From: Atopsyche davidsoni
Lineage: Eukaryota > Arthropoda > Insecta > Trichoptera > Hydrobiosidae
Direction of reading: 5' to 3'
DNA: 64,000 nucleotides
Assembly (NCBI GenBank): GCA_022113835.1
Contig: JAILWY010000029.1
Coordinates: forward strand, 2,118,001-2,182,000
A program made the translations under genes and the position numbers. The notes beneath the pieces were generated by a model. That model saw nothing but the letters and a program-made list of their open reading frames with translations. It was not told where the DNA came from and ran no database searches. The stretch's first letter is position 1; the number at the start of each line of letters is the position of its first letter. Shown piece after piece: positions 1 through 64,000 of this stretch.

Positions 1-1
1 A

Positions 2-3000
2 ACCGTCACATTAACATCTTCTGCCGCACCTGTTGTAACCGACATAACAACACCTTCTGCCGCACCTGTTGTAACCGACATAACAACACCTTCTGCCGCA
101 CCTGTTGTAACCGGCATATCAACGTCTTCTGCCGCATCTGCTGTAACCGACACAACATCACCATCAGGCGCACCAGTAGAAACCGTCCCGACAGCATCTA
201 CTGCCGCAACTGTTGAAACCGTCACAACAACATCTTCTTCCGCACCTGTTGTAACCGACATAACAACACCTTCTGCCGCACCTGTTGTAACCGACATAAC
301 AACACCTTCTGCCGCACCTGTTGTAACCGGCATATCAACGTCTTCTGCCGCATCTGCTGTAACCGACACAACATCACCATCAGGCGCACCAGTAGAAACC
401 GTCCCGACAGCATCTACTGCCGCAACTGTTGAAACCGTCACAACAACATCTTCTTCCGCACCTGTTGTAACCGACATAACAACACCTTCTGCCGCACCTG
501 TTGTAACCGACATAACAACACCTTCTGCCGCACCTGTTGTAACCGACATAACAACACCTTCTGCCACTCCTGTTGCAACCGACGTAACAACATTATCAGG
601 CGCACCAGTAGAAACTGTCACGACAGCATCTACTGCCGTAACTGTTGAAACCGTCACAACAACATCTTCTGCCGCACCTGTTGTAACGGACATAACAACA
701 CCTTCTGCCGCACCTGTTGTAACCGACATAACAACACCTTCTGCCACTCCTGTTGCAACCGACGTAACAACATTATCAGGCGCACCAGTAGAAACTGTCA
801 CGACAGCATCTACTGCCGCAACTGTTGAAACCGTCACAACAACATCTTCTGCCGCACCTGTTGTAACCGACATAACAACACCTTCTGCCGCACCTGTTGT
901 AACCGGCATATCAACGTCTTCTGCCGCATCTGCTGTAACCGACACAACATCACCATCAGGCGCACCAGTAGAAACCGTCCCGACAGCATCTACTGCCGCA
1001 ACTGTTGAAACCGTCACAACAACATCTTCTTCCGCATCTGTTGTAACCGACATAACAACACCTTCTGCTACTCCTGTTGCAACCGACATAACAACACCAT
1101 CAGGCGCACCAGTAGAAACCGTCCCGACAGCATCTACTGCCGCAACTGTTGAAACCGTCACAACAACATCTTCTTCCGCACCTGTTGTAACCGACATAAC
1201 AACACCTTCTGCCGCACCTGTTGTAACCGACATAACAACACCTTCTGCCGCACCTGTTGTAACCGACATAACAACACCTTCTGCCGCACCTGTTGTAACC
1301 GAGATAACAACACCTTCTGCCACTCCTGTTGCAACCGACGTAACAACATTATCAGGCGCACCAGTAGAAACTGTCACGACAGCATCTACTGCCGCAACTG
1401 TTGAAACCGTCACAACAACATCTTCTGCCGCACCTGTTGTAACGGACATAACAACACCTTCTGCCGCACCTGTTGTAACCGGCGTATCAACGTCTTCTGC
1501 CGCATCTGCTGTAACCGACACATCGTCACCTTCAGGCGCACCAGTTGAAACCGTCCCGACAGCATCTACTGCCGCAACTGTTGAAACCGTCACAATAACA
1601 TCTTCTGCCGCACCTGTTGTAACCGGCATATCAACGTCTTCTGACGCATCTGTTGTAACCGACACAACATCACCTTCAGGCGCACCAGTAGAAACCGTCC
1701 CGACAGCATCTACTGCCGCAACTGTTAAAACCGTCACAACAACATCTTCTGCCGCACCTGTTGTAACCGACATAACAACATCTTCTGCCGCACCTGTTGT
1801 AACGGAAATAACAACACCTTCTGCCGCACCTGTTGTAACCGGCATATCAACGTCTTCTGCCGCATCTGCTGTAACCGACATAACAACACCTTCTGCCGCA
1901 CCTGTTGTAACCGATATAACAACACCTTCTGCTACTCCTGTTGCAACCGACATTACAACACCATCAGGCGCACCGGTTCAAACCGTCCCGACAGCATCTT
2001 CTGCCGCAACTGTTGAAACCGTCACAACAACATCTTCTGCCGCACCTGTTTTAACCGACATAACAACATCTTCTGCCGCACCTGTTGTAACGGAAATAAC
2101 AACACCTTCTGCCGCACCTGTTGTAACCGGCATATCAACGTCTTCTGCCGCATCTGCTGTAACCGACACATCATCACCTTCAGGCGCACCAGTAGAAACC
2201 GTCCCGACAGCATCTACTGCCGCAACTGTTGAAACCGTCACAACAACATCTTCTTCCGCATCTGTTGTAACCGACATAACAACACCTTCTGCTACTCCTG
2301 TTGCAACCGACATAACAACACCATCAGGCGCACCAGTAAAAACCGTCCCGACAGCATCTACTGCCGCAACTGTTGAAACCGTCACAACAACATCTTCTTC
2401 CGCACCTGTTGTAACCGTCACATTAACATCTTCTGCCGCACCTGTTGTAACCGACATAACAACACCTTTTGCCGCACCTGTTGTAACCGACATAACAACA
2501 CCTTCTGCCACTCCTGTTGCAACCGACGTAACAACATTATCAGGCGCACCAGTAGAAACTGTCACGACAGCATCTACTGCCGCAACTGTTGAAACCGTCA
2601 CAACAACATCTTCTGCCGCACCTGTTGTAACGGACATAACAACACCTTCTGCCGCACCTGTTGTAACCGACATAACAACACCTTCTGCTACTCCTGTTGC
2701 AACCGACATAACAACACCACCAGGCGCTCCAGTTGAAACCGTCCCGACAGCATCTTCTGCCGCAACTGTTGAAACCGTCACAACAACATCTTCTGCCGCA
2801 CCTGTTGTAACCGACATAACAACACCTTCTGCCGCACCTGTTTTAACCGACATTACAACACCTTCTGCTACTCCTGTTGCAACCGACATAACAACACCAT
2901 CAGGCGCTCCAGTTGAAACCGTCCCGACAGCATCTTCTGCCGCAACTGTTGAAACCGTCACAACAACATCTTCTGCCGCACCTGTTGTAACCGACATAAC

Positions 3001-6000
3001 AACATCTTCTGCCGCACCTGTTGTAACGGAAATAACAACACCTTCTGCCGCACCTGTTGTAACCGGCATATCAACGTCTTCTGCCGCATCTGCTGTAACC
3101 GACACATCATCACCTTCAGGCGCACCAGTTGAAACCGTCCCGACAACATCTACTGCCGCAACTGTTGAAACCGTCACAACAACATCTTCTTCCGCACCTG
3201 TTGTAACCGACATAACAACACCTTCTGCCGCACCTGTTGTAACCGGCATATCAACGTCTTCTGCCGCATCTGCTGTAACCGACACAACATCACCATCAGG
3301 CGCACCAGTAGAAACCGTCCCGACAGCATCTACTGCCGCAACTGTTGAAACCGTCACAACAACATCTTCTTCCGCATCTGTTGTAACCGACATAACAACA
3401 CCTTCTGCTACTCCTGTTGCAACCGGCATATCAACGTCTTCTGCCGCATCTGCTGTAACCGACATAACAACACCTTCTGCCGCACCTGTTGTAACCGATA
3501 TAACAACACCTTCTGCTACTCCTGTTGCAACCGACATTACAACACCATCAGGCGCACCGGTTCAAACCGTCCCGACAGCATCTTCTGCCGCAACTGTTGA
3601 AACCGTCACAACAACATCTTCTGCCGCACCTGTTGTAACCGACATAACAACATCTTCTGCCGCACCTGTTGTAACGGAAATAACAACACCTTCTGCCGCA
3701 CCTGTTGTAACCGGCATATCAACGTCTTCTGCCGCATCTGCTGTAACCGACACATCATCACCTTCAGGCGCACCAGTAGAAACCGTCCCGACAGCATCTA
3801 CTGCCGCAACTGTTGAAACCGTCACAACAACATCTTCTTCCGCATCTGTTGTAACCGACATAACAACACCTTCTGCTACTCCTGTTGCAACCGACATAAC
3901 AACACCATCAGGCGCACCAGTAGAAACCGTCCCGACAGCATCTACTGCCGCAACTGTTGAAACCGTCACAACAACATCTTCTTCCGCACCTGTTGTAACC
4001 GTCACATTAACATCTTCTGCCGCACCTGTTGTAACCGACATAACAACACCTTCTGCCGCACCTGTTGTAACCGACATAACAACACCTTCTGCCACTCCTG
4101 TTGCAACCGACGTAACAACATTATCAGGCGCACCAGTTGAAACTGTCACGACAGCATCTACTGCCGCAACTGTTGAAACCGTCACAACAACATCTTCTGC
4201 CGCACCTGTTGTAACGGACATAACAACACCTTCTGCCGCACCTGTTGTAACCGACATAACAACACCTTCTGCTACTCCTGTTGCAACCGACATAACAACA
4301 CCACCAGGCGCTCCAGTTGAAACCGTCCCGACAGCATCTTCTGCCGCAACTGTTGAAACCGTCACAACAACATCTTCTGCCGCACCTGTTGTAACCGACA
4401 TAACAACACCTTCTGCCGCACCTGTTTTAACCGACATTACAACACCTTCTGCTACTCCTGTTGCAACCGACATAACAACACCATCAGGCGCTCCAGTTGA
4501 AACCGTCCCGACAGCATCTTCTGCCGCAACTGTTGAAACCGTCACAACAACATCTTCTGCCGCACCTGTTGTAACCGACATAACAACATCTTCTGCCGCA
4601 CCTGTTGTAACGGAAATAACAACACCTTCTGCCGCACCTGTTGTAACCGGCATATCAACGTCTTCTGCCGCATCTGCTGTAACCGACACATCATCACCTT
4701 CAGGCGCACCAGTTGAAACCGTCCCGACAACATCTACTGCCGCAACTGTTGAAACCGTCACAACAACATCTTCTTCCGCACCTGTTGTAACCGACATAAC
4801 AACACCTTCTGCCGCACCTGTTGTAACCGGCATATCAACGTCTTCTGCCGCATCTGCTGTAACCGACACAACATCACCATCAGGCGCACCAGTAGAAACC
4901 GTCCCGACAGCATCTACTGCCGCAACTGTTGAAACCGTCACAACAACATCTTCTTCCGCATCTGTTGTAACCGACATAACAACACCTTCTGCTACTCCTG
5001 TTGCAACCGACATAACAACACCATCAGGCGCACCAGTAGAAACCGTCCCGACAGCATCTACTGCCGCAACTGTTGAAACCGTCACAACAACATCTTCTTC
5101 CGCACCTGTTGTAACCGACATAACAACACCTTCTGCCGCACCTGTTGTAACCGACATAACAACACCTTCTGCCGCACCTGTTGTAAACGACATAACAACA
5201 CCTTCTGCCACTCCTGTTGCAACCGACGTAACAACATTATCAGGCGCACCAGTAGAAACTGTCACGACAGCATCTACTGCCGCAACTGTTGAAACCGTCA
5301 CAACAACATCTTCTGCCGCACCTGTTGTAACGGACATAACAACACCTTCTGCCGCACCTGTTGTAACCGACATAACAACACCTTCTGCCACTCCTGTTGC
5401 AACCGACGTAACAACATTATCAGGCGCACCAGTAGAAACTGTCACGACAGCATCTACTGCCGCAACTGTTGAAACCGTCACATTAACATCTTCTGCCGCA
5501 CCTGTTGTAACCGACATAACAACACCTTCTGCCGCACCTGTTGTAACCGGCATATCAACGTCTTCTGCCGCATCTGCTGTAACCGACACAACATCACTAT
5601 CAGGCGCACCAATAGAAACCGTCCCGACAGCATCTACTGCCGCAACTATTGAAACCGTCCCAACAACATCTTCTTCCGCACCTGTTGTAACCGACATAAC
5701 AACACCTTCTGCTACTCCTGTTGCAACCGACATAACAACACCATCAGGCGCTCCAGTTGAAACCGTCCCGACAGCATCTTCTGCCGCAACTGTTGAAACC
5801 GTCACAACAACATCTTCTGCCGCACCTGTTGTAACCGACATAACAACACCTTCTGCCGCACCTGTTGTAACCGACATTACAACACCTTCTGCCGCACCTG
5901 TTGTAACCGGCATATCAACGTCTTCTGCCGCATCTGCTGTAACCGACACAACATCACCATCAGGCGCACCAGTAGAATCCGTCCCGACAGAATCTACTGC

Positions 6001-9000
6001 CGCAACTGTTGAAACCGTCACATTAACATCTTCTGCCGCACCTGTTGTAACCGGCATATCAACGTCTTCTGCCGCATCTGTTCTATCCGACACAACATCA
6101 CCTTCAGGCGCACCAGTAGAAACCGTCCCGACAGCATCTACTGCCGCAATTGTTGAAACCGTCACAACAACATCTTCTGCCGCACCTGTTGTAACCGACA
6201 TAACAACACCTTCTACCGCACCTGTTGTAACCGACATAACAACACCTTCTGCCGCACCTGTTGTAACCGGCATATCAACGTCTTCTGCCGCATCTGCTGT
6301 AACCGACACAACATCACCATCAGGCGCACCAGTAGAAACCGTCCCGACAGCATCTACTGCCGCAACTGTTGAAACCGTCACAACAACATCTTCTTCCGCA
6401 TCTGTTGTAACCGACATAACAACACCTTCTGCTACTCCTGTTGCAACCGACATAACAACACCATCAGGCGCACCAGTAGAAACCGTCCCGACAGCATCTA
6501 CTGCCGCAACTGTTGAAACCGTCACAACAACATCTTCTTCCGCACCTGTTGTAACCGACATAACAACACCTTCTGCCGCACCTGTTGTAACCGACATAAC
6601 AACACCTTCTGCCGCACCTGTTGTAACCGAGATAACAACACCTTCTGCCACTCCTGTTGCAACCGACGTAACAACATTATCAGGCGCACCAGTAGAAACT
6701 GTCACGACAGCATCTACTGCCGCAACTGTTGAAACCGTCACAACAACATCTTCTGCCGCACCTGTTGTAACGGACATAACAACACCTTCTGCCGCACCTG
6801 TTGTAACCGACATAACAACACCTTCTGCCGCACCTGTTGTAACCGACATAACAACACCTTCTGCCACTCCTGTTGCAACCGACGTAACAACATTATCAGG
6901 CGCACCAGTAGAAACTGTCACGACAGCATCTACTGCCGCAACTGTTGAAACCGTCACATTAACATCTTCTGCCGCACCTGTTGTAACCGACATAACAACA
7001 CCTTCTGCCGCACCTGTTGTAACCGACATAACAACACCTTCTGCCGCACCTGTTGTAACCGGCATTACAACGTCTTCTGCCGCATCTGCTGTAACCGACA
7101 CAACATCACCATCAGGCGCACCAGTAGAAACCGTCCCGACAGCATCTACTGCCGCAACTGTTGAAACCGTCACAACAACATCTTCTTCCGCATCTGTTGT
7201 AACCGACATAACAACACCTTCTGCTACTCCTGTTGCAACCGACATAACAACACCATCAGGCGCACCAGTAGAAACCGTCCCGACAGCATCTACTGCCGCA
7301 ACTGTTGAAACCGTCACAACAACATCTTCTTCCGCATCTGTTGTAACCGACATAACAACACCTTCTGCTACTCCTGTTGCAACCGGCATATCAACGTCTT
7401 CTGCCGCATCTGCTGTAACCGACATAACAACACCTTCTGCCGCACCTGTTGTAACCGATATAACAACACCTTCTGCTACTCCTGTTGCAACCGACATTAC
7501 AACACCATCAGGCGCACCGGTTCAAACCGTCCCGACAGCATCTTCTGCCGCAACTGTTGAAACCGTCACAACAACATCTTCTGCCGCACCTGTTGTAACC
7601 GACATAACAACATCTTCTGCCGCACCTGTTGTAACGGAAATAACAACACCTTCTGCCGCACCTGTTGTAACCGGCATATCAACGTCTTCTGCCGCATCTG
7701 CTGTAACCGACACATCATCACCTTCAGGCGCACCAGTAGAAACCGTCCCGACAGCATCTACTGCCGCAACTGTTGAAACCGTCACAACAACATCTTCTTC
7801 CGCATCTGTTGTAACCGACATAACAACACCTTCTGCTACTCCTGTTGCAACCGACATAAAAACACCATCAGGCGCACCAGTAGAAACCGTCCCGACAGCA
7901 TCTACTGCCGCAACTGTTGAAACCGTCACAACAACATCTTCTTCCGCACCTGTTGTAACCGTCACATTAACATCTTCTGCCGCACCTGTTGTAACCGACA
8001 TAACAACACCTTCTGCCGCACCTGTTGTAACCGACATAACAACACCTTCTGCCACTCCTGTTGCAACCGACGTAACAACATTATCAGGCGCACCAGTTGA
8101 AACTGTCACGACAGCATCTACTGCCGCAACTGTTGAAACCGTCACAACAACATCTTCTGCCGCACCTGTTGTAACGGACATAACAACACCTTCTGCCGCA
8201 CCTGTTGTAACCGACATAACAACACCTTCTGCTACTCCTGTTGCAACCGACATAACAACACCACCAGGCGCTCCAGTTGAAACCGTCCCGACAGCATCTT
8301 CTGCCGCAACTGTTGAAACCGTCACAACAACATCTTCTGCCGCACCTGTTGTAACCGACATAACAACACCTTCTGCCGCACCTGTTTTAACCGACATTAC
8401 AACACCTTCTGCTACTCCTGTTGCAACCGACATAACAACACCATCAGGCGCTCCAGTTGAAACCGTCCCGACAGCATCTTCTGCCGCAACTGTTGAAACC
8501 GTCACAACAACATCTTCTGCCGCACCTGTTGTAACCGACATAACAACATCTTCTGCCGCACCTGTTGTAACGGAAATAACAACACCTTCTGCCGCACCTG
8601 TTGTAACCGGCATATCAACGTCTTCTGCCGCATCTGCTGTAACCGACACATCATCACCTTCAGGCGCACCAGTTGAAACCGTCCCGACAACATCTACTGC
8701 CGCAACTGTTGAAACCGTCACAACAACATCTTCTTCCGCACCTGTTGTAACCGACATAACAACACCTTCTGCCGCACCTGTTGTAACCGGCATATCAACG
8801 TCTTCTGCCGCATCTGCTGTAACCGACACAACATCACCATCAGGCGCACCAGTAGAAACCGTCCCGACAGCATCTACTGCCGCAACTGTTGAAACCGTCA
8901 CAACAACATCTTCTTCCGCATCTGTTGTAACCGACATAACAACACCTTCTGCTACTCCTGTTGCAACCGACATAACAACACCATCAGGCGCACCAGTAGA

Positions 9001-12000
9001 AACCGTCCCGACAGCATCTACTGCCGCAACTGTTGAAACCGTCACAACAACATCTTCTTCCGCACCTGTTGTAACCGACATAACAACACCTTCTGCCGCA
9101 CCTGTTGTAACCGACATAACAACACCTTCTGCCGCACCTGTTGTAACCGACATAACAACACCTTCTGCCACTCCTGTTGCAACCGACGTAACAACATTAT
9201 CAGGCGCACCAGTAGAAACTGTCACGACAGCATCTACTGCCGCAACTGTTGAAACCGTCACAACAACATCTTCTGCCGCACCTGTTGTAACGGACATAAC
9301 AACACCTTCTGCCGCACCTGTTGTAACCGACATAACAACACCTTCTGCCACTCCTGTTGCAACCGACGTAACAACATTATCAGGCGCACCAGTAGAAACT
9401 GTCACGACAGCATCTACTGCCGCAACTGTTGAAACCGTCACATTAACATCTTCTGCCGCACCTGTTGTAACCGACATAACAACACCTTCTGCCGCACCTG
9501 TTGTAACCGGCATATCAACGTCTTCTGCCGCATCTGCTGTAACCGACACAACATCACTATCAGGCGCACCAATAGAAACCGTCCCGACAGCATCTACTGC
9601 CGCAACTATTGAAACCGTCCCAACAACATCTTCTTCCGCACCTGTTGTAACCGACATAACAACACCTTCTGCTACTCCTGTTGCAACCGACATAACAACA
9701 CCATCAGGCGCTCCAGTTGAAACCGTCCCGACAGCATCTTCTGCCGCAACTGTTGAAACCGTCACAACAACATCTTCTGCCGCACCTGTTGTAACCGACA
9801 TAACAACACCTTCTGCCGCACCTGTTGTAACCGACATTACAACACCTTCTGCCGCACCTGTTGTAACCGGCATATCAACGTCTTCTGCCGCATCTGCTGT
9901 AACCGACACAACATCACCATCAGGCGCACCAGTAGAATCCGTCCCGACAGAATCTACTGCCGCAACTGTTGAAACCGTCACATTAACATCTTCTGCCGCA
10001 CCTGTTGTAACCGGCATATCAACGTCTTCTGCCGCATCTGTTCTATCCGACACAACATCACCTTCAGGCGCACCAGTAGAAACCGTCCCGACAGCATCTA
10101 CTGCCGCAACTGTTGAAACCGTCACAACAACATCTTCTGCCGCACCTGTTGTAACCGACATAACAACACCTTCTACCGCACCTGTTGTAACCGACATAAC
10201 AACACCTTCTGCCGCACCTGTTGTAACCGGCATATCAACGTCTTCTGCCGCATCTGCTGTAACCGACACAACATCACCATCAGGCGCACCAGTAGAAACC
10301 GTCCCGACAGCATCTACTGCCGCAACTGTTGAAACCGTCACAACAACATCTTCTTCCGCATCTGTTGTAACCGACATAACAACACCTTCTGCTACTCCTG
10401 TTGCAACCGACATAACAACACCATCAGGCGCACCAGTAGAAACCGTCCCGACAGCATCTACTGCCGCAACTGTTGAAACCGTCACAACAACATCTTCTTC
10501 CGCACCTGTTGTAACCGACATAACAACACCTTCTGCCGCACCTGTTGTAACCGACATAACAACACCTTCTGCCGCACCTGTTGTAACCGACATAACAACA
10601 CCTTCTGCCGCACCTGTTGTAACCGAGATAACAACACCTTCTGCCACTCCTGTTGCAACCGACGTAACAACATTATCAGGCGCACCAGTAGAAACTGTCA
10701 CGACAGCATCTACTGCCGCAACTGTTGAAACCGTCACAACAACATCTTCTGCCGCACCTGTTGTAACGGACATAACAACACCTTCTGCCGCACCTGTTGT
10801 AACCGACATAACAACACCTTCTGCCGCACCTGTTGTAACCGACATAACAACACCTTCTGCCACTCCTGTTGCAACCGACGTAACAACATTATCAGGCGCA
10901 CCAGTAGAAACTGTCACGACAGCATCTACTGCCGCAACTGTTGAAACCGTCACATTAACATCTTCTGCCGCACCTGTTGTAACCGACATAACAACACCTT
11001 CTGCCGCACCTGTTGTAACCGACATAACAACACCTTCTGCCGCACCTGTTGTAATCGGCATATCAACGTCTTCTGCCGCATCTGCTGTAACCGACACAAC
11101 ATCACCATCAGGCGCACCAGTAGAATCCGTCCCGACAGAATCTACTGCCGCAACTGTTGAAACCGTCACATTAACATCTTCTGCCGCACCTGTTGTAACC
11201 GGCATATCAACGTCTTCTGCCGCATCTGTTGTATCCGACACAACATCACCTTCAGGCGCACCAGTAGAAACCGTCCCGACAGCATCTACTGCCGCAACTG
11301 TTGAAACCGTCACAACAACATCTTTTGCCGCACCTGTTGTAACCGACATAACAACACCTTCTACCGCACCTGTTGTAACCGACATAACAACACCTTCTGC
11401 CCCACCTGTTGTAACCGACATTACAACACCTTCTGCCGCACCTGTTGTAATCGGCATATCAACGTCTTCTGCCGCATCTGCTGTAACCGACACAACATCA
11501 CCATCAGGCGCACCAGTAGAATCCGTCCCGACAGAATCTACTGCCGCAACTGTTGAAACCGTCACAACAACATCTTCTTCCGCATCTGTTGTAACCGACA
11601 TAACAACACCTTCTGCTACTCCTGTTGCAACCGACATAACAACACCATCAGGCGCACCAGTAGAAACCGTCCCGACAGCATCTACTGCCGCAACTGTTGA
11701 AACCGTCACAACAACATCTTCTTCCGCACCTGTTGTAACCGACATAACAACACCTTCTGCCGCACCTGTTGTAACCGACATAACAACACCTTCTGCCGCA
11801 CCTGTTGTAACCGACATAACAACACCTTCTGCCGCACCTGTTGTAACCGAGATAACAACACCTTCTGCCACTCCTGTTGCAACCGACGTAACAACATTAT
11901 CAGGCGCACCAGTAGAAACTGTCACGACAGCATCTACTGTCGCAACTGTTGAAACCGTCACAACAACATCTTCTGCCGCACCTGTTGTAACGGACATAAC

Positions 12001-54000: not shown

Positions 54001-57000
54001 AACCGACACATCAACACCTTCAGGCGCACCAGTTGAAACCGTCCCGACAGCATCTACTGCCGCAACTGTTGAAACCGTCACAACAACATCTTCTGCCGCA
54101 CTTGTTGTAACGGACATAACAACACCTTCTGCCGCACCTGTTGTAACCGACATAACAACACCTTCTGCCACTCCTGTTGCAACCGACGTAACAACATTAT
54201 CAGGCGCACCAGTAGAAACTGTCACGACAGCATCTACTGCCGCAACTGTTGAAACCGTCACATTAACATCTTCTGCCGCACCTGTTGTAACCGACATAAC
54301 AACACCTTCTGCCGCACCTGTTGTAACCGGCATATCAACGTCTTCTGCCGCATCTGCTGTAACCGACACAACATCACCATCAGGCGCACCAGTAGAAACC
54401 GTCCCGACAGAATCTACTGCCGCAACTGTTGAAACCGTCACAACAACATCTTCTGCCGCACCTGTTGTAACCGACATAACAACACTTTCTGCCACTCCTG
54501 TTGCAACCGACATAACAACACCATCAGGCGCACAAGTTGAAACCGTCCCGACATCATCTTCTGCTGCAACTGTTGAAACCGTCACAACAACATCTTCTGC
54601 CGCACCTGTTTTAACCGACATAACAACATCTTCTGACGCAACTGTTGTAACCGGCATATCAACGTCTTCTGCCGCATCTGTTGTAACCGACACAACATCA
54701 CCTTTAGGCGCACCAGTAGAAACCGTCCCGACAGCATCTACTTCCGCAACTGTTGAAACCGTCACAACAACATCTTCTGCCGCACCTGTTGTAACCGACA
54801 TAACAACACCTTCTGCTACTCCTGTTGCAACCGACATAACAACACCATCAGGCGCAACAGTTGAAACTGTCCCGACAGCATCTACTGCCGCAACTGTTGA
54901 AACCGTCACAACAACATCTTCTGCCGCACCTGTTGTAACCGACATAACAACACCTTCTGCTACTCCTGTTGCAACCGACATTACATTACCATCAGGCGCA
55001 CCAGTAGAAACCGTCCCGACAGCATCTACTGCCGCAACTGTTGAAACCGTCACAACAACATCTTCTGCCGCACTTGTTGTAACGGACATAACAACACCTT
55101 CTGCCGCACCTGTTGTAACCGATATAACAACACCTTCTGCCACTCCTGTTGCAACCGACGTAACAACATTATCAGGCGCACCAGTAGAAACTGTCACGAC
55201 AGCATCTACTGCCGCAACTGTTGAAACCGTCACAACAACATCTTCTGCCGCACCTGTTGTAACCGACATAACAACACCTTCTGCCGCACCTGTTGTAACC
55301 GACATAACAACACCTTCTGCCGCACCTGTTGTAACCGGCATATCAACGTCTTCTGCCGCATCTGCTGTAACCGACACAACATCACCATCAGGCGCACCAG
55401 TAGAAAGCGTCCCGACTGAATCTACTGCCGCAACTGTTGAAACCGTCACATTAACATCTTCTGCCGCACCTGTTGTAACCGGAATATCAACGTCTTCTGC
55501 CGCATCTGTTGTATCCGACACAACATCACCTTCAGGCGCACCAGTAGAAACCGTCCCGACAGCATCTACTGCCGCAACTGTTGAAACCGTCACAACAACA
55601 TCTTCTTCCGCACCTGTTGTAACCGACATTACAACACCTTCTGCTACTCCTGTTGCAACCGACATAACAACACCATCAGGCGCACCAGTTGAAACCGTCC
55701 CGACAGCATCTATTGCCGCAACTGTTGAAACCGTCACAACAACATCTTCTGCCGCACCTGTTGTAACGGACATAACAACACCTTCTGCCGCACCTGTTGT
55801 AACCGACATAATAACACCTTCTGCCGCACCTGTTGTAACCGACATAACAACACCTTCTGCCACTCCTGTTGCAACCGACGTAACAACATTATCAGGCGCA
55901 CCAGTAGAAACTGACACGACAGCATCTACTGCCGCAACTGTTGAAACCGTCACAACAACACCTTCTGCCGCACCTGTTGTAACCGACATAACAACACCTT
56001 CTGCCGCACCTGTTGTAACCGACATAACAACACCTTCTGCCACTCCTGTTGCAACCGACGTAACAACATTATCAGGCGCACCAGTAGAAACTGTCACGAC
56101 AGCATCTACTGCCGCAACTGTTGAAACCGTCACAACAACATCTTCTGCCGCACCTGTTGTAACGGACATAACAACACCTTCTGCCGCACCTGTTGTAACC
56201 GACATAACAACACCTTCTGCCGCACCTGTTGAAACCGACATAACAACACCTTCTGCTACTCCTGTTGCAACTGACATAACAACACCATCAAGCGCACCAG
56301 TTGAAACCGTCCCGACAGCATCTACTGCCGCAACTGTTGAAACCGTCACAACAACATCTTCTTCCGCACCTGTTGTAACCGACATAACAACACCTTCTGT
56401 CGCACCTGTTGTAACCGACATAACAACACCTTCTGCCGCACCTGTTGTAACCGACATAACAACACCTTCTGCCACTCCTGTTGCAACCGACGTAACAACA
56501 TTATCAGGCGCACCAGTAGAAACTGTCACGACAGCATCTACTGCCGCAACTGTTGAAACCGTCACAACAACATCTTCTGCCGCACCTGTTGTAACCGGCA
56601 TATCAACGTCTTCTGCCGCACCTGTTGTAACCGGCATAACAACACCTTCTGCCACTCCTGTTGCAACCGTCATAACAACATTATCAGGCGCACCAGTAGA
56701 AACTGTCACGACAGCATCTACTGCCGCAACTGTTGAAACCGTCTCAACAACAACTTCTGCCGCAAGTGTTGTAACCGACATAACAACATCTTCTGCCGCA
56801 CCTGTTGTAACCGGCATATCAACGTCTTCTGCCGCATCTGTTGTAACCGACACAACATCACCTTCAGGCGCACCTGTAGAAACCGTCCCGACAGCATCTA
56901 CTGCCGCAACTGTTGAAACCGTCAAAACAACATCTTCTTCCGCATCTGTTATAACCGACATAACAACACCTTCTGCTACTCCTGTTGCAACCGACATAAC

Positions 57001-60000
57001 AACACCATCAGGCGCACCTGTAGAAACCGTCCCGACAGCATCTACTGCCGCAACTGTTGAACCCTTAACAACAACATCTTCTGCCGCACCTGTTGTAACC
57101 GACATAACAACACGTTCTGCCACTCCTGTTGCAACCGACATAACAACACCTTCTGCCACTCCTGTTGCAACCGACGTAACAACATTATCAGGCGCACCAG
57201 TAGAAACTGTCACGACAGCATCTACTGCCGCAACTGTTGAAACCGTCACAACAACATCTTCTTCCGCATCTGTTGTAACCGACATAACAACACCTTCTGC
57301 CACTCCTGTTGCAACCGACGTAACAACATTATCAGGCGCACCAGTAGAAACTGTCACGACAGCATCTACTGCCGCAACTGTTGAAACCGTCACAACAACA
57401 TCTTCTGCCGCACCTGTTGTAACGGACATAACAACACCTTCTGCCGCACCTGTTGTAACCGACATAATAACACCTTCTGCCGCACCTGTTGTAACCGACA
57501 TAACAACACCTTCTGCCACTCCTGATGCAACCGACGTAACAACATTATCGGGCGCACCAGTAGAAACTGTCACGACTGCATCTACTGCCGCAACTGTTGA
57601 AACCGTCACAACAACATCTTCTGCCGCACCTGTTGTAACGGACATAACAACACCTTCTGCCGCACCTGTTGTAACCGACATAACAACACCTTCTGCTACT
57701 CCTGTTGCAACTGACATAACAACACCATCAAGCGCACCAGTTGAAACCGTCCCGACAGCATCTACTGCCGCAACTGTTGAAACCGTCACAACAACATCTT
57801 CTGCCGCACCTGTTGTAACCGACATAACAACACCTTCTGCCGCACCTGTTGTAACCGACATAACAACACCTTCTGCCGCACCTGTTGTAACCGGCATATC
57901 AACGTCTTCTGCCGCATCTGCTGTAACCGACACAACATCACCATCAGGCGCACCAGTAGAAAGCGTCCCGACTGAATCTACTGCCGCAACTGTTGAAACC
58001 GTCACATTAACATCTTCTGCCGCACCTGTTGTAACCGGAATATCAACGTCTTCTGCCGCATCTGTTGTATCCGACACAACATCACCTTCAGGCGCACCAG
58101 TAGAAACCGTCCCGACAGCATCTACTGCCGCAACTGTTGAAACCGTCACAACAACATCTTCTTCCGCACCTGTTGTAACCGACATTACAACACCTTCTGC
58201 TACTCCTGTTGCAACCGACATAACAACACCATCAGGCGCACCAGTTGAAACCGTCCCGACAGCATCTATTGCCGCAACTGTTGAAACCGTCACAACAACA
58301 TCTTCTGCCGCACCTGTTGTAACGGACATAACAACACCTTCTGCCGCACCTGTTGTAACCGACATAATAACACCTTCTGCCGCACCTGTTGTAACCGACA
58401 TAACAACACCTTCTGCCACTCCTGTTGCAACCGACGTAACAACATTATCAGGCGCACCAGTAGAAACTGTCACGACAGCATCTACTGCCGCAACTGTTGA
58501 AACCGTCACAACATTATCTTCTGCCGCACCTGTTGTAACGGACATAACAACACCTTCTGCCGCACCTGTTGTAACCGACATAACAACACCTTCTGCCGCA
58601 CCTGTTGTAACCGACATAACAACACCTTCTGCTACTCCTGTTGCAACTGACATAACAACACCATCAAGCGCACCAGTTGAAACCGTCCCGACAGCATCTA
58701 CTGCCGCAACTGTTGAAACCGTCACAACAACATCTTCTTCCGCACCTGTTGTAACCGACATAACAACACCTTCTGTCGCACCTGTTGTAACCGACATAAC
58801 AACACCTTCTGCCGCACCTGTTGTAACCGACATAACAACACCTTCTGCCACTCCTGTTGCAACCGACGTAACAACATTATCAGGCGCACCAGTAGAAACT
58901 GTCATGACAGCATCTACTGCCGCAACTGTTGAAACCGTCACAACAATATCTTCTGCCGCAACTGTTGTAACCGGCATAACAACACCTTCTGCCACTCCTG
59001 TTGCAACCGACATAACAACATTATCAGGCGCACCAGTAGAAACTGTCACGACAGCATCTACTGCCGCAACTGTTGAAACCGTCACAACAACATCTTCTGC
59101 CGCAAGTGTTGTAACCGACATAACAACATCTTCTGCCGCACCTGTTGTAACCGGCATATCAACGTCTTCTGCCGCATCTGTTGTAACCGACACAACATCA
59201 CCTTCAGGCGCACCAGTAGAAACCGTCCCGACAGCATCTACTGCCGCAACTGTTGAAACCGTCAAAACAACATCTTCTTCCGCATCTGTTATAACCGACA
59301 TAACAACACCTTCTGCTACTCCTGTTGCAACCGACATAACAACACCATCAGGCGCACCAGTAGAAACCGTCCCGACAGCATCTACTGCCGCAACTGTTAA
59401 ACCCTTAACAACAACATCTTCTGCCGCACCTGTTGTAACCGACATAACAACACGTTCTGCCACTCCTGTTGCTACCGACATAACAACACCTTCTGCCACT
59501 CTTGTTGCAACCGACGTAACAACATTATCAGGCGCACCAGTAGAAACTGTCACGACAGCATCTACTGCCGCAACTGTTGAAACCGTCACAACAACACCTT
59601 CTGCCGCACCTGTTGTAACCGACATAACAACACCTTCTGCCGCACCTGTTGTAACCGACATAACAACACCTTCTGCCACTCCTGTTGCAACCGACGTAAC
59701 AACATTATCAGGCGCACCAGTAGAAACTGTCACGACAGCATCTACTGCCGCAACTGTTGAAACAGTCACAACAACATCTTCTGCCGCACCTGTTGTAACG
59801 GACATAACAACACCTTCTGCCGCACCTGTTTTAACCGACATAACAACACCTTCTGCTACTCCTGTTGCAACTGACATAACAACACCATCAAGCGCACCAG
59901 TTGAAACCGTCCCGACAGCATCTACTGCCGCAACTGTTGAAACCGTCACAACAACATCTTCTTCCGCACCTGTTGTAACCGACATTACAACACCTTCTGT

Positions 60001-63000
60001 CGCACCTGTTGTAACCGACATAACAACACCTTCTGCCGCACCTGTTGTAACCGACATAACAACACCTTCTGCCACTTCTGTTGCAACCGACGTAACAACA
60101 TTATCAGGCGCACCAGTAGAAACTGTCACGACAGCATCTACTGCCGCAACTGTTGAAACCGTCACAACAACATCTTCTGCCGCACCTGTTGTAACCGGCA
60201 TATCAACGTCTTCTGCCGCACCTGTTGTAACCGGCATAACAACACCTTCTGCCACTCCTGTTGCAACCGACATAACAACATTATCAGGCGCACCAGTAGA
60301 AACTGTCACGACAGCATCTACTGCCGCAACTGTTGAAACCGTCACAACAACATCTTCTGCCGCAAGTGTTGTAACCGACATAACAACATCTTCTGCCGCA
60401 CCTGTTGTAACCGGCATATCAACGTCTTCTGCCGCATCTGTTGTAACCGACACAACATCACCTTCAGGCGCACCAGTAGAAACCGTCCCGACAGCATCTA
60501 CTGCCGCAACTGTTGAAACCGTCAAAACAACATCTTCTTCCGCATCTGTTATAACCGACATAACAACACCTTCTGCTACTCCTGTTGCAACCGACATAAC
60601 AACACCATCAGGCGCACCAGTTGAAACCGTCCCGACAGCATCTACTGCCGCAACTGTTGAAACCGTCACAACAACATCTTCTGCCGCACCTGTTGTAACC
60701 GACATAACAACACCTTCTGCCGCACCTGTTGTAACCGGCATATCAACGTCTTCTGCCGCATCTGCTGTAACCGACACAACATCACCATCAGGCGCACCAG
60801 TAGAAACCGTCCCGACAGCATCTACTGCCGCAACTGTTGAAACCGTCACAACAACATCTTCTTCCGCATCTGTTGTAACCGACATAACAACACCTTCTGC
60901 TACTCCTGTTGCAACCGACATAACAACATTATCAGGCGCACCAGTAGAAACTGTCACGACAGCATCTACTGCCGCAACTGTTGAAACCGTCACAACAACA
61001 TCTTCTTCCGCATCTGTTGTAACCGACATAACAACACCTTCTGCCACTCCTGTTGCAACCGACGTAACAACATTATCAGGCGCACCAGTAGAAACTGTCA
61101 CGACAGCATCTACTGCCGCAACTGTTGAAACCGTCACAACAACATCTTCTGCCGCACCTGTTGTAACCGACATACCAACACCTTCTGCTCCTCCTGTTGC
61201 AACCGACATAACAACACCATCAGGCGCTCCAGTTGAAACCGTCCCGAGAGCATCTACTGCCGCAACTGTTGAAACCGTCACAACAACATCTTCTGCCGCA
61301 CCTGTTGTAACCGACATAACAACACCTTCTGCCACTCCTGTTGCAACCGACGTAACAACATTATCAGGCGCACCAGTAGAAACTGTCACGACAGCATCTA
61401 CTGCCGCAACTGTTGAAACCGTCACAACAACACCTTCTGCCGCACCTGTTGTAACCGACATAACAACACCTTCTGCCGCACCTGTTGTAACCGACATAAC
61501 AACACCTTCTGCCACTCCTGTTGCAACCGACGTAACAACATTATCAGGCGCACCAGTAGAAACTGTCACGACAGCATCTACTGCCGCAACTGTTGAAACC
61601 GTCACAACAACATCTTCTGCCGCACCTGTTGTAACGGACATAACAACACCTTCTGCCGCACCTGTTGTAACCGACATAACAACACCTTCTGCTACTCCTG
61701 TTGCAACTGACATAACAACACCATCAAGCGCACCAGTTGAAACCGTCCCGACAGCATCTACTGCCGCAACTGTTGAAACCGTCACAACAACATCTTCTTC
61801 CGCACCTGTTGTAACCGACATTACAACACCTTCTGTCGCACCTGTTGTAACCGACATAACAACACCTTCTGCCGCACCTGTTGTAACCGACATAACAACA
61901 CCTTCTGCCACTTCTGTTGCAACCGACGTAACAACATTATCAGGCGCACCAGTAGAAACTGTCACGACAGCATCTACTGCCGCAACTGTTGAAACCGTCA
62001 CAACAACATCTTCTGCCGCACCTGTTGTAACCGGCATATCAACGTCTTCTGCCGCACCTGTTGTAACCGGCATAACAACACCTTCTGCCACTCCTGTTGC
62101 AACCGACATAACAACATTATCAGGCGCACCAGTAGAAACTGTCACGACAGCATCTACTGCCGCAACTGTTGAAACCGTCACAACAACATCTTCTGCCGCA
62201 AGTGTTGTAACCGACATAACAACATCTTCTGCCGCACCTGTTGTAACCGGCATATCAACGTCTTCTGCCGCATCTGTTGTAACCGACACAACATCACCTT
62301 CAGGCGCACCAGTAGAAACCGTCCCGACAGCATCTACTGCCGCAACTGTTGAAACCGTCAAAACAACATCTTCTTCCGCATCTGTTATAACCGACATAAC
62401 AACACCTTCTGCTACTCCTGTTGCAACCGACATAACAACACCATCAGGCGCACCAGTAGAAACCGTCCCGACAGCATCTACTGCCGCAACTGTTGAACCC
62501 TTAACAACAACATCTTCTGCCGCACCTGTTGTAACCGACATAACAACACGTTCTGCCACTCCTGTTGCAACCGACATAACAACACCTTCTGCCACTCCTG
62601 TTGCAACCGACGTAACAACATTATCAGGCGCACCAGTAGAAACTGTCACGACAGCATCTACTGCCGTAACTGTTGAAACCGTCACAACAACATCTTCTTC
62701 CGCATCTGTTGTAACCGACATAACAACACCTTCTGCCACTCCTGTTGCAACCGACGTAACAACATTATCAGGCGCACCAGTAGAAACTGTCACGACAGCA
62801 TCTACTGCCGCAACTGTTGAAACCGTCACAACAACATCTTCTTCCGCACCTGTTGTAACCGACATACCAACACCTTCTGCTACTCCTGTTGCAACCGACA
62901 TAACAACACCATCAGGCGCTCCAGTTGAAACCGTCCCGACAGCATCTACTGCCGCAACTGTTGAAACCGTCACAACAACATCTTCTGCCGCACCTGTTGT

Positions 63001-64000
63001 AACCGACATAACAACACCTTCTGCCGCACCTGTTGTAACCGGCATATCAACGTCTTCTGCCGCATCTGCTGTAACCGACACAACATCACCATCAGGCGCA
63101 CCAGTAGAGAGCGTCCCGACAGAATCTACTGCCGCAACTGTTGAAACCGTCACATTAACATCTTCTGCCGCACCTGTTGTAACCGGAATATCAACGTCTT
63201 CTGCCGCATCTGTTGTATCCGACACAACATCACCTTCAGGCGCACCAGTAGAAACCGTCCCGACAGCATCTACTGCCGCAACTGTTGAAACCGTCACAAC
63301 AACATCTTCTTCCGCACCTGTTGTAACCGACATTACAACACCTTCTGCTACTCCTGTTGCAACCGACATAACAACACCATCAGGCGCACCAGTTGAAACC
63401 GTCCCGACAGCATCTACTGCCGCAACTGTTGAAACCGTCACAACAACATCTTCTGCCGCACCTGTTGTAACCGACATAACAACACCTTCTGCCGCACCTG
63501 TTGTAACCGGCATATCAACGTCTTCTGCCGCATCTGCTGTAACCGACACAACATCACCATCAGGCGCACCAGTAGAAACCGTCCCGACAGCATCTACTGC
63601 CGCAACTGTTGAAACCGTCACAACAACATCTTCTTCCGCATCTGTTGTAACCGACATAACAACACCTTCTGCTACTCCTGTTGCAACCGACATAACAACA
63701 CCATCAGACGCACCAGTAGAAACCGTCCCGACAGCATCTACTGCCGCAACTGTTGAAACCGTCACAACAACATCTTCTTCCGCACCTGTTGTAACCGACA
63801 TAACAACACCTTCTGCCGCACCTGTTGTAACCGACATAACAACACCTTCTGCCGCACCTGTTGTAACCGACATAACAACACCTTCTGCCACTCCTGTTGC
63901 AACCGACACAACATCACCATCAGGCGCACCAGTAGAAACCGTCCCGACAGCATCTACTGCAGCACCTGTTGAAACCGTCACAACAACATCTTCTGCCGCA
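2..64000 (+). CDS. Internal part of a giant Thr/Ser/Pro/Ala/Val-rich repeat protein (mucin-like), partial at both ends
   Basis: The frame beginning at base 2 is open through the whole window: 21,333 codons, with no stop seen and neither end present. The product is 1,777 consecutive 12-residue repeats. The main types are A TDITTPSAAPVV, B TGISTSSAASAV, C TDTTSPSGAPVE, D TVPTASTAATVE, E TVTTTSSSAPVV, F TDITTPSATPVA, G TDVTTLSGAPVE and H TVTTASTAATVE. In the six-unit cycle at 218-433, 31 of 72 residues are Ser or Thr, 8 are Pro, 5 are acidic and none is basic, aromatic, Cys or Met. From that composition this part alone would weigh about 2 MDa unmodified. Such sequences are typical of disordered, often O-glycosylated stalks of mucins and wall adhesins, so an extracellular structural role is inferred. 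No signal peptide, folded domain or anchor is in the window. The only in-frame ATG I noticed, at 58904, is a Thr-to-Met change inside a repeat and not a start. The + strand is preferred because its frame is uninterrupted. A non-coding array is the main alternative. Confidence 0.6.
218..433 (+). repeat. Type example of the six-unit cycle E-A-A-B-C-D (216 bp, 72 residues)
   Basis: Units start at 218 (E), 254 (A), 290 (A), 326 (B), 362 (C) and 398 (D). The same order, with a variable number of A units, recurs through the window. A second form uses F-G-H in place of B-C-D, first seen complete at 542 (F), 578 (G) and 614 (H). A third runs F, then TDITTPSGAPVE, then D. Examples with no A unit (E at 1586 directly before B at 1622) and with three A units (27362-27613) show that the A run is the elastic part of the cycle. 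Confidence 0.9.
1835..5009. repeat. Tandem segmental duplication, period 1,584 bp (44 units)
   Basis: Sequence from about 1835 to 3425 recurs directly at about 3419 to 5009. Both copies carry the CAA variant (1979 and 3563) that makes a TGA on the other strand, and the GAT variant upstream of it. The join near 3415-3470 puts a B unit directly after an F unit, an order otherwise rare. The same join recurs near 7375-7430 because it was copied again by the larger duplication. Confidence 0.85.
3285..11090. repeat. Tandem segmental duplication, period 3,960 bp (110 units)
   Basis: About 3285-7090 matches about 7245-11090. Between 3285 and 6600 I noticed only three substitutions: 3900 C versus 7860 A, 5187 A versus 9147 C, and 6150 T versus 10110 C. 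Near 6600 and 10560 the right copy has one extra A unit, and the match then continues at an offset of 3,996. The block contains the right copy of the 1,584-bp duplication, so that event came first. Confidence 0.88.
12540..17717. repeat. Tandem segmental duplication, period 2,556 bp (71 units)
   Basis: About 12540-15095 matches about 15096-17651, and the match runs on to about 17717 as the start of a further copy. Shared private variants include GAA before GGC near 12850 and 15406, the GGT ACA change near 14116 and 16672, and the TCA-for-ACC change near 14581 and 17137. Copy limits are precise to one or two units. Confidence 0.87.
17660..25975. repeat. Tandem segmental duplication, 125 units in the left copy, 120 in the right
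   Basis: About 17660-19330 matches 22160-23830 at an offset of 4,500 bases. From about 19510 the match continues at 23830 with an offset of 4,320, so the right copy lacks 180 bases (five units). The match ends near 21655 and 25975. Shared markers include GCA GCT at 18241 and 22741, and the TTT TCT change at 21114 and 25434. A short stretch near 20690-20715 differs from 25010-25035 at several linked sites, which looks like a local exchange of one module. Confidence 0.85.
20870..21985. repeat. Smaller duplication, period 756 bp (21 units)
   Basis: About 20870-21230 recurs at about 21626-21985. Both carry the same rare changes: CTT TCT at 21005 and 21761, TTT TCT at 21114 and 21870, and GTT ATA after ACC at 21171 and 21927. 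The right part of this block is not present in the 22.2-26.0 kb copy, so it may be younger than the 4.3-4.5 kb duplication or may have been lost there. Confidence 0.75.
26875..36190. repeat. Three-copy higher-order repeat, offsets 3,672 bp and 2,808 bp
   Basis: About 26875-29440 recurs at 30547-33112 and 33355-35920. All three carry the ATA TTA change (27302, 30974, 33782), the ACA-for-GCA change nearby, and the paired cycles with three A units. The middle and right copies are a perfect-looking tandem duplication of 2,808 bp (78 units), spanning about 30220 to 35920. At the middle copy's right end (about 33110) sequence switches back to that of 30302, while the left and right copies share a TCG GTT variant at 29441 and 35921 and stay alike to about 29710 and 36190. 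This places the exchange point within about one unit. Confidence 0.87.
36080..37060. repeat. Dispersed copy of a segment 19.6 kb to the left
   Basis: About 36080-37060 matches 16460-17440 at an offset of 19,620 bases (545 units), including the rare GGT ACA variant (36292 and 16672), the ACT ACT pair after TCT near 36922 and 17302, and the GAA-for-GCA change at 36842 and 17222. One clear difference is ACC at 36758 against TCA at 17138. It directly follows the three-copy block, so it may mark the edge of that amplification. Confidence 0.75.
42560..50252. repeat. Tandem segmental duplication, offsets 3,924 and 3,744 bp
   Basis: About 42560-44416 matches 46484-48340 (109 units apart) and about 45180-46508 matches 48924-50252 (104 units apart). 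The two copies abut. The middle part is 180 bases (five units) shorter in the right copy. Shared markers are the CAA CCG CAC change at 43401 and 47325, the ATC AAC TGC change near 43936 and 47860, and the AGA codon (Arg) near 45475 and 49219. A further copy of the first marker at 44589 shows an internal 1,188-bp (33-unit) repeat. Confidence 0.83.
49888..51908. repeat. Tandem duplication, period 972 bp (27 units)
   Basis: About 49888-50936 recurs at 50860-51908. Both share TGT TAT AAC at 50251 and 51223 and the CAC AAG change at 50462 and 51434. I noticed about five substitutions in 1 kb, among them ACA against ATC near 50453 and 51425, and CAT against AAT near 50407 and 51379. This pair is therefore more diverged than the 3,960-bp duplication. 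Confidence 0.83.
54044..55004. repeat. Third copy of the 972-bp block
   Basis: About 54044-55004 matches 50948-51908 at an offset of 3,096 bases (86 units), with the CAC AAG marker at 54530. It lacks the TAT AAC variant of the other two copies and has its own change near 54552 (TCA for GCA after CCG ACA). It is separated from them by 51.9-54.0 kb, which holds ordinary cycles of the array. Confidence 0.75.
55220..59100. repeat. Segmental duplication, offset 2,556 shrinking to 2,376 and 2,340 bp
   Basis: About 55220-55950 matches 57776-58506 (71 units). Markers are the AGC codon at 55404 and 57960 followed by ACT GAA. Downstream the match resumes at an offset of 2,376 bases (56125 with 58501), five units shorter, and later at 2,340 (56761 with 59101). 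The AGC marker appears again near 63107, next to GAG, which shows a more distant relative at the right end of the window. Confidence 0.7.
59485..62456. repeat. Duplication, offset 1,836 bp (51 units)
   Basis: About 59485-60620 matches 61321-62456. Shared markers are ATC AAG CGC at 59887 and 61723, CTG TCG CAC at 59997 and 61833, and GCA AGT GTT at 60363 and 62199. Differences include ACA against ACC near 59762 and 61598, and TTA against GTA near 59830 and 61666. The GCA AGT GTT marker also occurs at 56763 and 59103, so this region holds four related cycles. Confidence 0.75.

Follow-up and report, generated by a model that had tools for sequence, protein, structure and literature searches.

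A 150.7-kb open frame for a putative giant secreted mucin-like protein in a gene cluster of the caddisfly Atopsyche davidsoni

An open frame from start codon to stop codon

The window analysed here, a 64,000-nucleotide stretch of the Atopsyche davidsoni (Trichoptera, Hydrobiosidae) assembly GCA_022113835.1, lies within the repeat of one plus-strand open reading frame (ORF) of 50,239 codons, hereafter the giant. It occupies C29:2118001-2182000, where C29 is contig JAILWY010000029.1 and C29:2118001 is window base 1. The assembly comprises 370,702,741 bases in 80 contigs; with 100 kb fetched on either side of the window, 264 kb were studied, and these contain no N bases. A sequence-only reading of the window had described a plus-strand frame, open from base 2 and leaving the window at both ends, that has almost no methionine and encodes a Thr/Ser/Pro/Ala/Val-rich repeat of 12 residues. 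All of this was confirmed: frame +2 has no stop in 21,333 codons, its sole Met is codon 19,635, and its composition is T 28%, A 16%, V 16%, S 14% and P 10%. The other five window frames have 476, 1,824, 865, 3 and 941 stops.

The frame continues beyond the window in both directions and closes outside it, at both ends, as a gene would. From stop to stop it covers C29:2111234-2262022 (50,263 codons), and from the first Met to the TAG there are 50,239 codons (150,717 bases) with no internal stop. The start had been placed to the left of the window, and an ATG does lie there in the same frame, followed by the signal-peptide-like leader MKKLLIMLCLVRAVLGQ. On the right, where an anchor domain and a stop had been expected, the unique C-terminal end and the TAG are in frame, and no membrane anchor was seen by eye (no anchor predictor was run). 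Flanks that broke with the plus frame were to have spoken against a gene; those found here continue it. The proposal of an exceptionally long exon or a bacterial giant gene holds for its first half, as the frame is a single open exon in a eukaryotic genome. With a start, a leader, a unique end and a stop all present in the flanks, the interpretation as a gene is supported. One frame runs from ATG to stop between promoter-like and polyadenylation-type signals (Table 1), as in an intronless gene, to which an upstream non-coding exon could be added.

Table 1. Positions of features of the giant ORF on C29 and in the window.
Feature	Position	Strand	Remark
TATA box	C29:2111239-2111244	+	outside window
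ATG	C29:2111306	+	first Met of the open frame
Leader	C29:2111306-2111356	+	signal-peptide-like
Array	C29:2112959-2259841	+	4,080 units, 146.9 kb
Repeat region of the giant ORF, codons 2,233-23,565	window 2..64000	+	translation identical to that slice of the 50,239-residue protein; 0 stops
1,777 whole units of the 4,080 36-bp tandem units	window 1..64000	+	nine types, in blocks
Reverse-frame stop, variant unit copy 1	window 1978..1980	-	one copied variant
Reverse-frame stop, same variant copy 2	window 3562..3564	-	one copied variant
Reverse-frame stop, same variant copy 3	window 7522..7524	-	one copied variant
Unique C-terminal part	C29:2259842-2262022	+	same frame
TAG stop	C29:2262023-2262025	+	same frame
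AATAAA	from C29:2262073	+	after the stop

The window is a single tandem array of 1,777 units of 36 bp (12 residues) in one register, with 179 distinct 36-mers that encode 127 distinct 12-mers. None of the 1,775 units tested by sliding fitted better out of register, and the best off-register self-match was 43%, whereas the 40 shortest multiples of 36 gave 75-83%. Nine unit types follow one another in strict order (P to V, 248/248; Q to V, 102/102; L to Q, 102/102; X to P, 155/155; I to P, 94/94) and group into 351 blocks of 19 kinds, each of 4-8 units, so that blocks of several units are duplicated in register. There are no indels in the window, and the sole indel in all 4,080 units is a 3-base insertion, adding one codon. 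Singleton unit variants are rarer in the left half of the window (16) than in the right (49; window 36000-64000), where changes to Lys, Arg, His and Met are also commoner; homogenisation therefore appears uneven along the array.

The predicted product has a mass of 4.78 MDa and an isoelectric point of 4.05, with only 4 Cys (residues 9, 49,530, 49,648 and 49,774), 3 Trp, 51 Lys and 75 Arg. Ser and Thr together number 20,962 (41.7%) and Pro makes up 10.8%, giving the long tandem Ser/Thr/Pro-rich region that is typical of mucin-like proteins. The two ends that flank the array (551 and 727 codons, the N-terminal one with degenerate repeats of its own) are open in the gene's frame only. Base shuffles of these ends had a mean of 22.2 and 33.5 stops, respectively, and were stop-free in 0 of 2,000 cases each. 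Judged from the sequence, the window is quite probably the interior of the repeat in one intronless plus-strand gene for a giant secreted, acidic, mucin-like protein of 50,239 residues.

The gene cluster and its genome context

The giant is one of ten plus-strand ORFs with an MK..L leader, which were chosen as a cluster from those ORFs in the 264 kb that have 250 codons or more. The ten genes lie between C29:2026148 and 2271968 (~246 kb), all on the same strand, with mutual gaps of 2.3-11.2 kb; ORFs with leader-like starts at 2021301-2022365 (minus strand) and 2274449-2275999 (plus strand) were left out of the set. A TATA match is found 66 or 67 nucleotides before the ATG in 8 of the 10 genes (at -70 in g2270 and -48 in g2026), and AATAAA or ATTAAA occurs within 800 nucleotides past the last codon in all ten. 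The 5' leader could be aligned in all nine genes aligned (g2026 was left out), and the mean hydropathy of the leader core is 3.54 in the giant and 2.89-3.86 in the other nine.

Four core genes of 786, 2,508, 9,105 and 50,239 residues have a common leader, Thr/Ala/Pro/Val repeats and a C-terminal domain. The three smaller ones also share the promoter and 3' flank of the giant, and have the same continuous layout. Starting 8-11 nucleotides past its stop, the giant's 3' flank can be matched to that of each of the three (69-79% over 202-241 nucleotides); in g2098 and g2264, the match starts ~30 nucleotides before the stop. When searched against the assembly, the giant's C-terminal domain gave at least six matches at E≤1e-3, and those listed are all in the cluster, two within the giant itself and one a 27-residue relic. 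The relic (C29:2091458-2091538) is located between two core genes and is perhaps a dead family member. The sister gene at C29:2059896-2087210 has a 9,105-codon open frame with a related 12-residue repeat, corresponding to roughly 0.9 MDa. Periods reported by TRF are 36 bp in the giant and 72 bp in the 9,105-residue gene, and include 18 bp in the two shorter core genes (TTAAPV in g2264); a doubled hexamer may have been the origin of the 12-residue unit.

Four short genes with Lys-rich repeats (C29:2034741-2055495) lie upstream of the mucin-like genes and have similar leaders and the same TATA spacing; they could possibly encode basic partners of the acidic giants. Nine pieces of the cluster genes were searched against Pfam, and only Cementoin and Senescence passed their cut-offs. 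The Cementoin match is to the repeats of g2264 (C29:2264351-2266708; 51.7 vs. 27 bits, 4 stretches). Cementoin is a transglutaminase-binding domain, and the match, to which we give no weight, is either a chance product of low complexity or possibly a hint of cross-linking. The Senescence match in the giant's C-terminal domain (26.5 vs. 24.6 bits; only 15.7 in g2098) was judged a low-complexity or amphipathic match and was likewise given no weight.

C29 is part of the main genome, since copies of a 400-bp repeat element from this locus are found at 95-98% identity on at least 20 other contigs, including C15, among the 40 candidates scored out of 2,257. The TTAGG repeat is abundant, with 4,157 and 4,290 overlapping matches to the pattern on the two strands; the places listed on C1 include 4.2 kb and 17.26 Mb. 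Among the places listed on C2, C3 and C4, TTAGG runs recur every ~5.2 kb (e.g., C3 14081063, 14086298 and 14091544), as if a 5-kb retroelement lay between telomere repeats. The fibroin light chain family is known from moths and caddisflies (Amphiesmenoptera). An exon match to it was found on C15 (44.4 bits, cut-off 27), and none was found in 14 control genomes; an excerpt of PMC11906653 agrees with its occurrence in moths and caddisflies. The Chorion_1 and Fibroin_P25 profiles had no match in the assembly, and as the controls were equally without matches, this does not establish their absence.

Two clearly different insect-type mitochondrial genomes are present in the assembly, one on C33 and the other on C46, C54, C61 and C75, so that another insect, as prey, parasite or contaminant, was probably co-sequenced. 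One mitochondrial contig has 16,187 bp; others (C46, 35.5 kb; C54, 28.4 kb) carry another COI. In both types, with genes named as we presume them to be, tRNA Gln-Met precedes ND2, followed by Trp-Cys-Tyr, and Leu(taa) lies between COI and COII; Ile precedes Gln in C46. Ile-Gln-Met is the ancestral insect order of these tRNAs, and Met-Ile-Gln is found in most Lepidoptera. Together with the TTAGG repeats and the fibroin light chain match, the mitochondrial order makes Trichoptera or an early-branching moth lineage the likely source.

A gene weighed against its alternatives

By itself, the open frame of the window proves little, because a stop-free unit, once copied, stays open by default. Several results count against a maintained protein-coding gene. 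When the consensus unit was dinucleotide-shuffled 10,000 times, 9,994 of the products had at least one open frame; the real unit is open in five of six frames. Among 193 inferred unit changes in the window (16 variants left out), there were no stops (1.3 expected, P(0) = 0.24) and 49 synonymous changes (54.7±5.8 expected), and an omega-like ratio was 1.16 (0.85-1.66) for the plus frame and 1.19 (0.86-1.71) for the reverse frame. Over the full array (336 changes, 22 variants left out), 93 changes were synonymous (100.4±7.5 expected) and none were stops (2.5 expected, P = 0.078). The pN/pS values ranged from 0.78 to 1.27 over six pairs of C-terminal domains, with 1.19 for the internal duplication, and purifying selection on the amino acid sequence was not detected in the window, the full array or the C-terminal domains.

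Other points on the same side concern the gene's ends and relatives. TATA and AATAAA motifs arise easily in AT-rich flanks, and the TATA of g2034 sits in a TA microsatellite. An Arg follows the hydrophobic core of the giant's leader, and its C-terminal domain is shorter than those of its paralogues. In favour of a gene, the C-terminal domains of the three smaller core genes differ by gaps whose lengths are divisible by 3 in 20 of 20 cases, compared with 1 of 10 for their 3' flanks. This count is partly due to intradomain repeats (of 66 bp in g2264), whose copy-number changes keep the frame anyway, and between the giant and its sisters the figure is 7 of 14, in alignments disturbed by the shorter end. 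No homologue was found outside the cluster, which says little about insects, since several of the collections searched hold only prokaryotes, plasmids or viruses. Protein searches at E≤1e-3 returned nothing for the first 500 plus-frame codons (7,991 scored candidates), a 500-residue minus-frame piece (7,998) or the neighbouring gene g2270 (7,986). There were no exact 40-mer matches in genome contigs or 23-mer matches in viral contigs, none of 202 and 23 pattern matches was confirmed in a related-locus search with the first 300 codons, and a blastn search of plasmids and phages with the first 2,400 bases found nothing. Three 1,000-residue repeat pieces had no Pfam or NCBIfam match at E≤1, the window had no Rfam or tRNA match, and sequence searches of the PDB gave only a chance match for the repeat (E 0.069) and none for g2270. 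A promoter/terminator scan and RNA folds were uninformative.

These results can be read as those of a non-coding satellite, in which a chance-open 36-bp unit was amplified in a dying cluster member and the frame is a by-product. The neutral-looking unit variants and the ease with which shuffled units are open fit such an origin, as do the Arg after the leader core and the shortened C-terminal domain, and the strict multi-unit order resembles higher-order satellite repeats. A satellite should, however, show no constraint on frame and contain frame-breaking indels; here, though the substitutions look neutral, no such indel is found in 4,080 units, and the ends outside the array are open and joined to it in frame. 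Base composition is 3-periodic in the consensus unit (P 0.0006, dinucleotide shuffle) and in the individual unit types (P≤0.0024 in 8 of 9, 0.024 in the ninth), and this periodicity is kept across types beyond random change (P 0.0004 or 0.03, depending on the choice of root). The 9,105-codon frame of the sister gene, with its related 12-residue repeats, also argues against a satellite, and we regard this origin as improbable.

Other features of the unit changes are neutral-looking or were not relied on. A base that is rare (<1%) at its unit position results from only 88 of the 193 window changes, and 20 of these 88 are synonymous (23.3 expected). New Cys, Tyr or Trp codons number 0 in the window (4.5 expected) and 3 in the full array (7.5 expected, P 0.05), so that the deficit is weakened, while an excess of new Pro in the full array (17 vs. 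9.7 expected, P 0.002) may reflect conversion between unit types. Leader pN/pS ranges from 0.37 to 1.08 when five core-type genes are compared pairwise (ten pairs), and from 0.31 to 2.58 over all 36 pairs. As far as the sequences indicate, either the family drifts freely provided that frame and composition are maintained, or decay of the giant copy has set in. The intact frame of the giant speaks against decay of long standing; function could still have been lost recently, because only 2.5 stops were expected. The only conspicuous constraint is that frame-breaking indels are lacking. Without the flanks, a tandem array that stays open and a dN/dS close to 1 are both misleading, and it is the flanks, not the window, that decide in favour of a gene.

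The minus strand, on which the reverse frame is nearly open, was considered as the coding strand. Minus frame 2 has only 3 stops in the window, one reverse frame has 14 over the whole ORF, and one reverse frame has a single stop in the N-terminal part and 2 in the 9,105-residue sister gene. The antisense frame of the repeat is almost open because NCN-rich plus-strand codons are read there as GNN-type codons. Over the whole ORF, the six frames have 0, 4,388 and 1,193, and 1,840, 14 and 2,306 stops, so that the 14 are set against none on the plus strand, where the promoter-like elements, the leader, the polyadenylation-type signal and the paralogues all lie. AlphaFold2 single-sequence models of 240 residues predict beta structure for both strands, with higher confidence for the minus strand (pLDDT 90.9 vs. 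76.1), and neither model had a PDB fold match at E≤0.001. AlphaFold2 invents confident solenoids for repeats, according to a portion of PMC11795689, and because of this bias the models were not used as evidence. A minus-strand gene is very improbable.

A more serious alternative, to which we give a fairly low chance, is that the secreted gene is real and the full chain is not made. Part of the array could be removed by splicing, transcription could end prematurely, or alleles could differ so widely that 50,239 is only the assembled number of this haplotype. A repeat of 150 kb is burdensome to transcribe and translate, and near-identical blocks extend up to 10,758 bp with ≤10 mismatches (at a lag of 10,332), which makes the exact copy number doubtful, possibly by one block, and is a further point against the giant as assembled. 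Reads somewhat longer than 10,758 bp would resolve the array, and the longest exact repeat within the ORF, 4,925 bp, is short beside common long reads. Paralogues of 786, 2,508 and 9,105 codons with the same continuous layout also speak against an incomplete chain, as does a frame kept over all 4,080 units, which would be unneeded if the array were spliced out.

We lean, with less assurance than for the gene itself, towards a single uninterrupted 150.7-kb coding exon that would encode one secreted mucin-like polypeptide of ~50,000 residues (4.8 MDa, up to ~17 micrometres fully extended), its frame and composition held and its sequence drifting freely. The gene of this silk-making insect would be read from the plus strand off its TATA promoter, and transcribed and translated as a single chain of signal peptide, short N-terminal part, ~4,080 twelve-residue repeats and the C-terminal domain common to the three sisters. 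Judging by composition, its 20,962 Ser and Thr residues would be densely O-glycosylated, and the polymer would be polyanionic. Made in a gland, such a product might serve as a long, hydrated adhesive, coat or gel former; silk-gland secretion is its most likely place, egg-mass jelly a possible one. Array length would change by unequal exchange between near-identical units and be tolerated as long as the frame is kept. A repeat resembling a transglutaminase substrate would fit a cross-linked secretion.

Comparison with known systems

Clusters of genes for secreted repeat proteins with a signal peptide are described in Trichoptera, as cadhesins (Caz) in Limnephilus, which are mostly Ser/Thr-rich putative silk adhesives (PMC11092239), and as pseudofibroins in Plectrocnemia, which also has silk mucins (PMC9432349). 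The giant resembles these in lying in a cluster and, with its leader, in having a putative signal peptide, as far as the descriptions in those sources go. Compared by description only, it is far larger than the cadhesins and has leader and repeats in one exon, whereas most caz genes have two exons with part of the signal peptide in exon 1.

Very large, hydrophilic, repetitive silk proteins with clustered genes are also reported, in part of PMC11906653, for Neomicropteryx cornuta, a moth in the sister group of all other moths, in which the sericin-like Srcl2 and Srcl3 (933 and 1,450 kDa) are encoded together on one contig. In the same account Srcl1-3 contain 21-57% Ser, in contrast to the Thr/Ala/Val of the giant, and the masses are about one third of the giant's or less. 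The fibroin heavy chain of Limnephilus lunatus, almost 1,000 kDa according to a passage of PMC11092239, is likewise a huge secreted repeat protein. As described there, its gene has two exons, its repeat is 102 residues long and its ends are conserved and carry Cys; the giant has one exon, 12-residue units and 4 Cys.

Muc1 and Muc2, secreted repetitive silk proteins that are also called mucins, have 32 and 24-25 exons in Yponomeuta, 2 and 19 in Plectrocnemia, and 4 and 10 in Neomicropteryx, according to excerpts of PMC9684489, PMC9432349 and PMC11906653. Unlike the giant, these are multi-exon genes, and the CXCXC-type motif near the C-terminus of Muc1, as it is described, is absent from the giant. 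Likened by description, the giant may work like known silk proteins, yet its layout differs from theirs and it lacks the Muc1 Cys motif, so that it is filed with none of them. A comparable animal gene was not found in the portions of the open-licence literature consulted.

The sister ladder of 786, 2,508, 9,105 and 50,239 residues, with a common promoter and ends, offers a natural series for studying how repeat length affects a secreted polymer, which may be an adhesive used underwater or in egg coats. If the full chain is made, a 150-kb coding exon and a 4.8-MDa chain would test RNA polymerase, export, ribosomes and the secretory path. Such genes may well be masked as satellites. PKZILLA-1 has 45,212 residues and titin about 35,000. 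By these sizes, the giant would exceed both, and to our knowledge no eukaryotic protein, and no coding exon, would be longer. Proteins of more than 5,000 residues have been surveyed (PMC11573180), and predicted proteins of PVC-superphylum bacteria reach 85,800 amino acids in the section of PMC12057145 that treats them. PKZILLA-1, titin and the PVC proteins are likewise single predicted chains of several MDa; they are multidomain enzymes, muscle springs or bacterial, whereas the protein predicted here would be a low-complexity secreted repeat polymer encoded in one animal exon.
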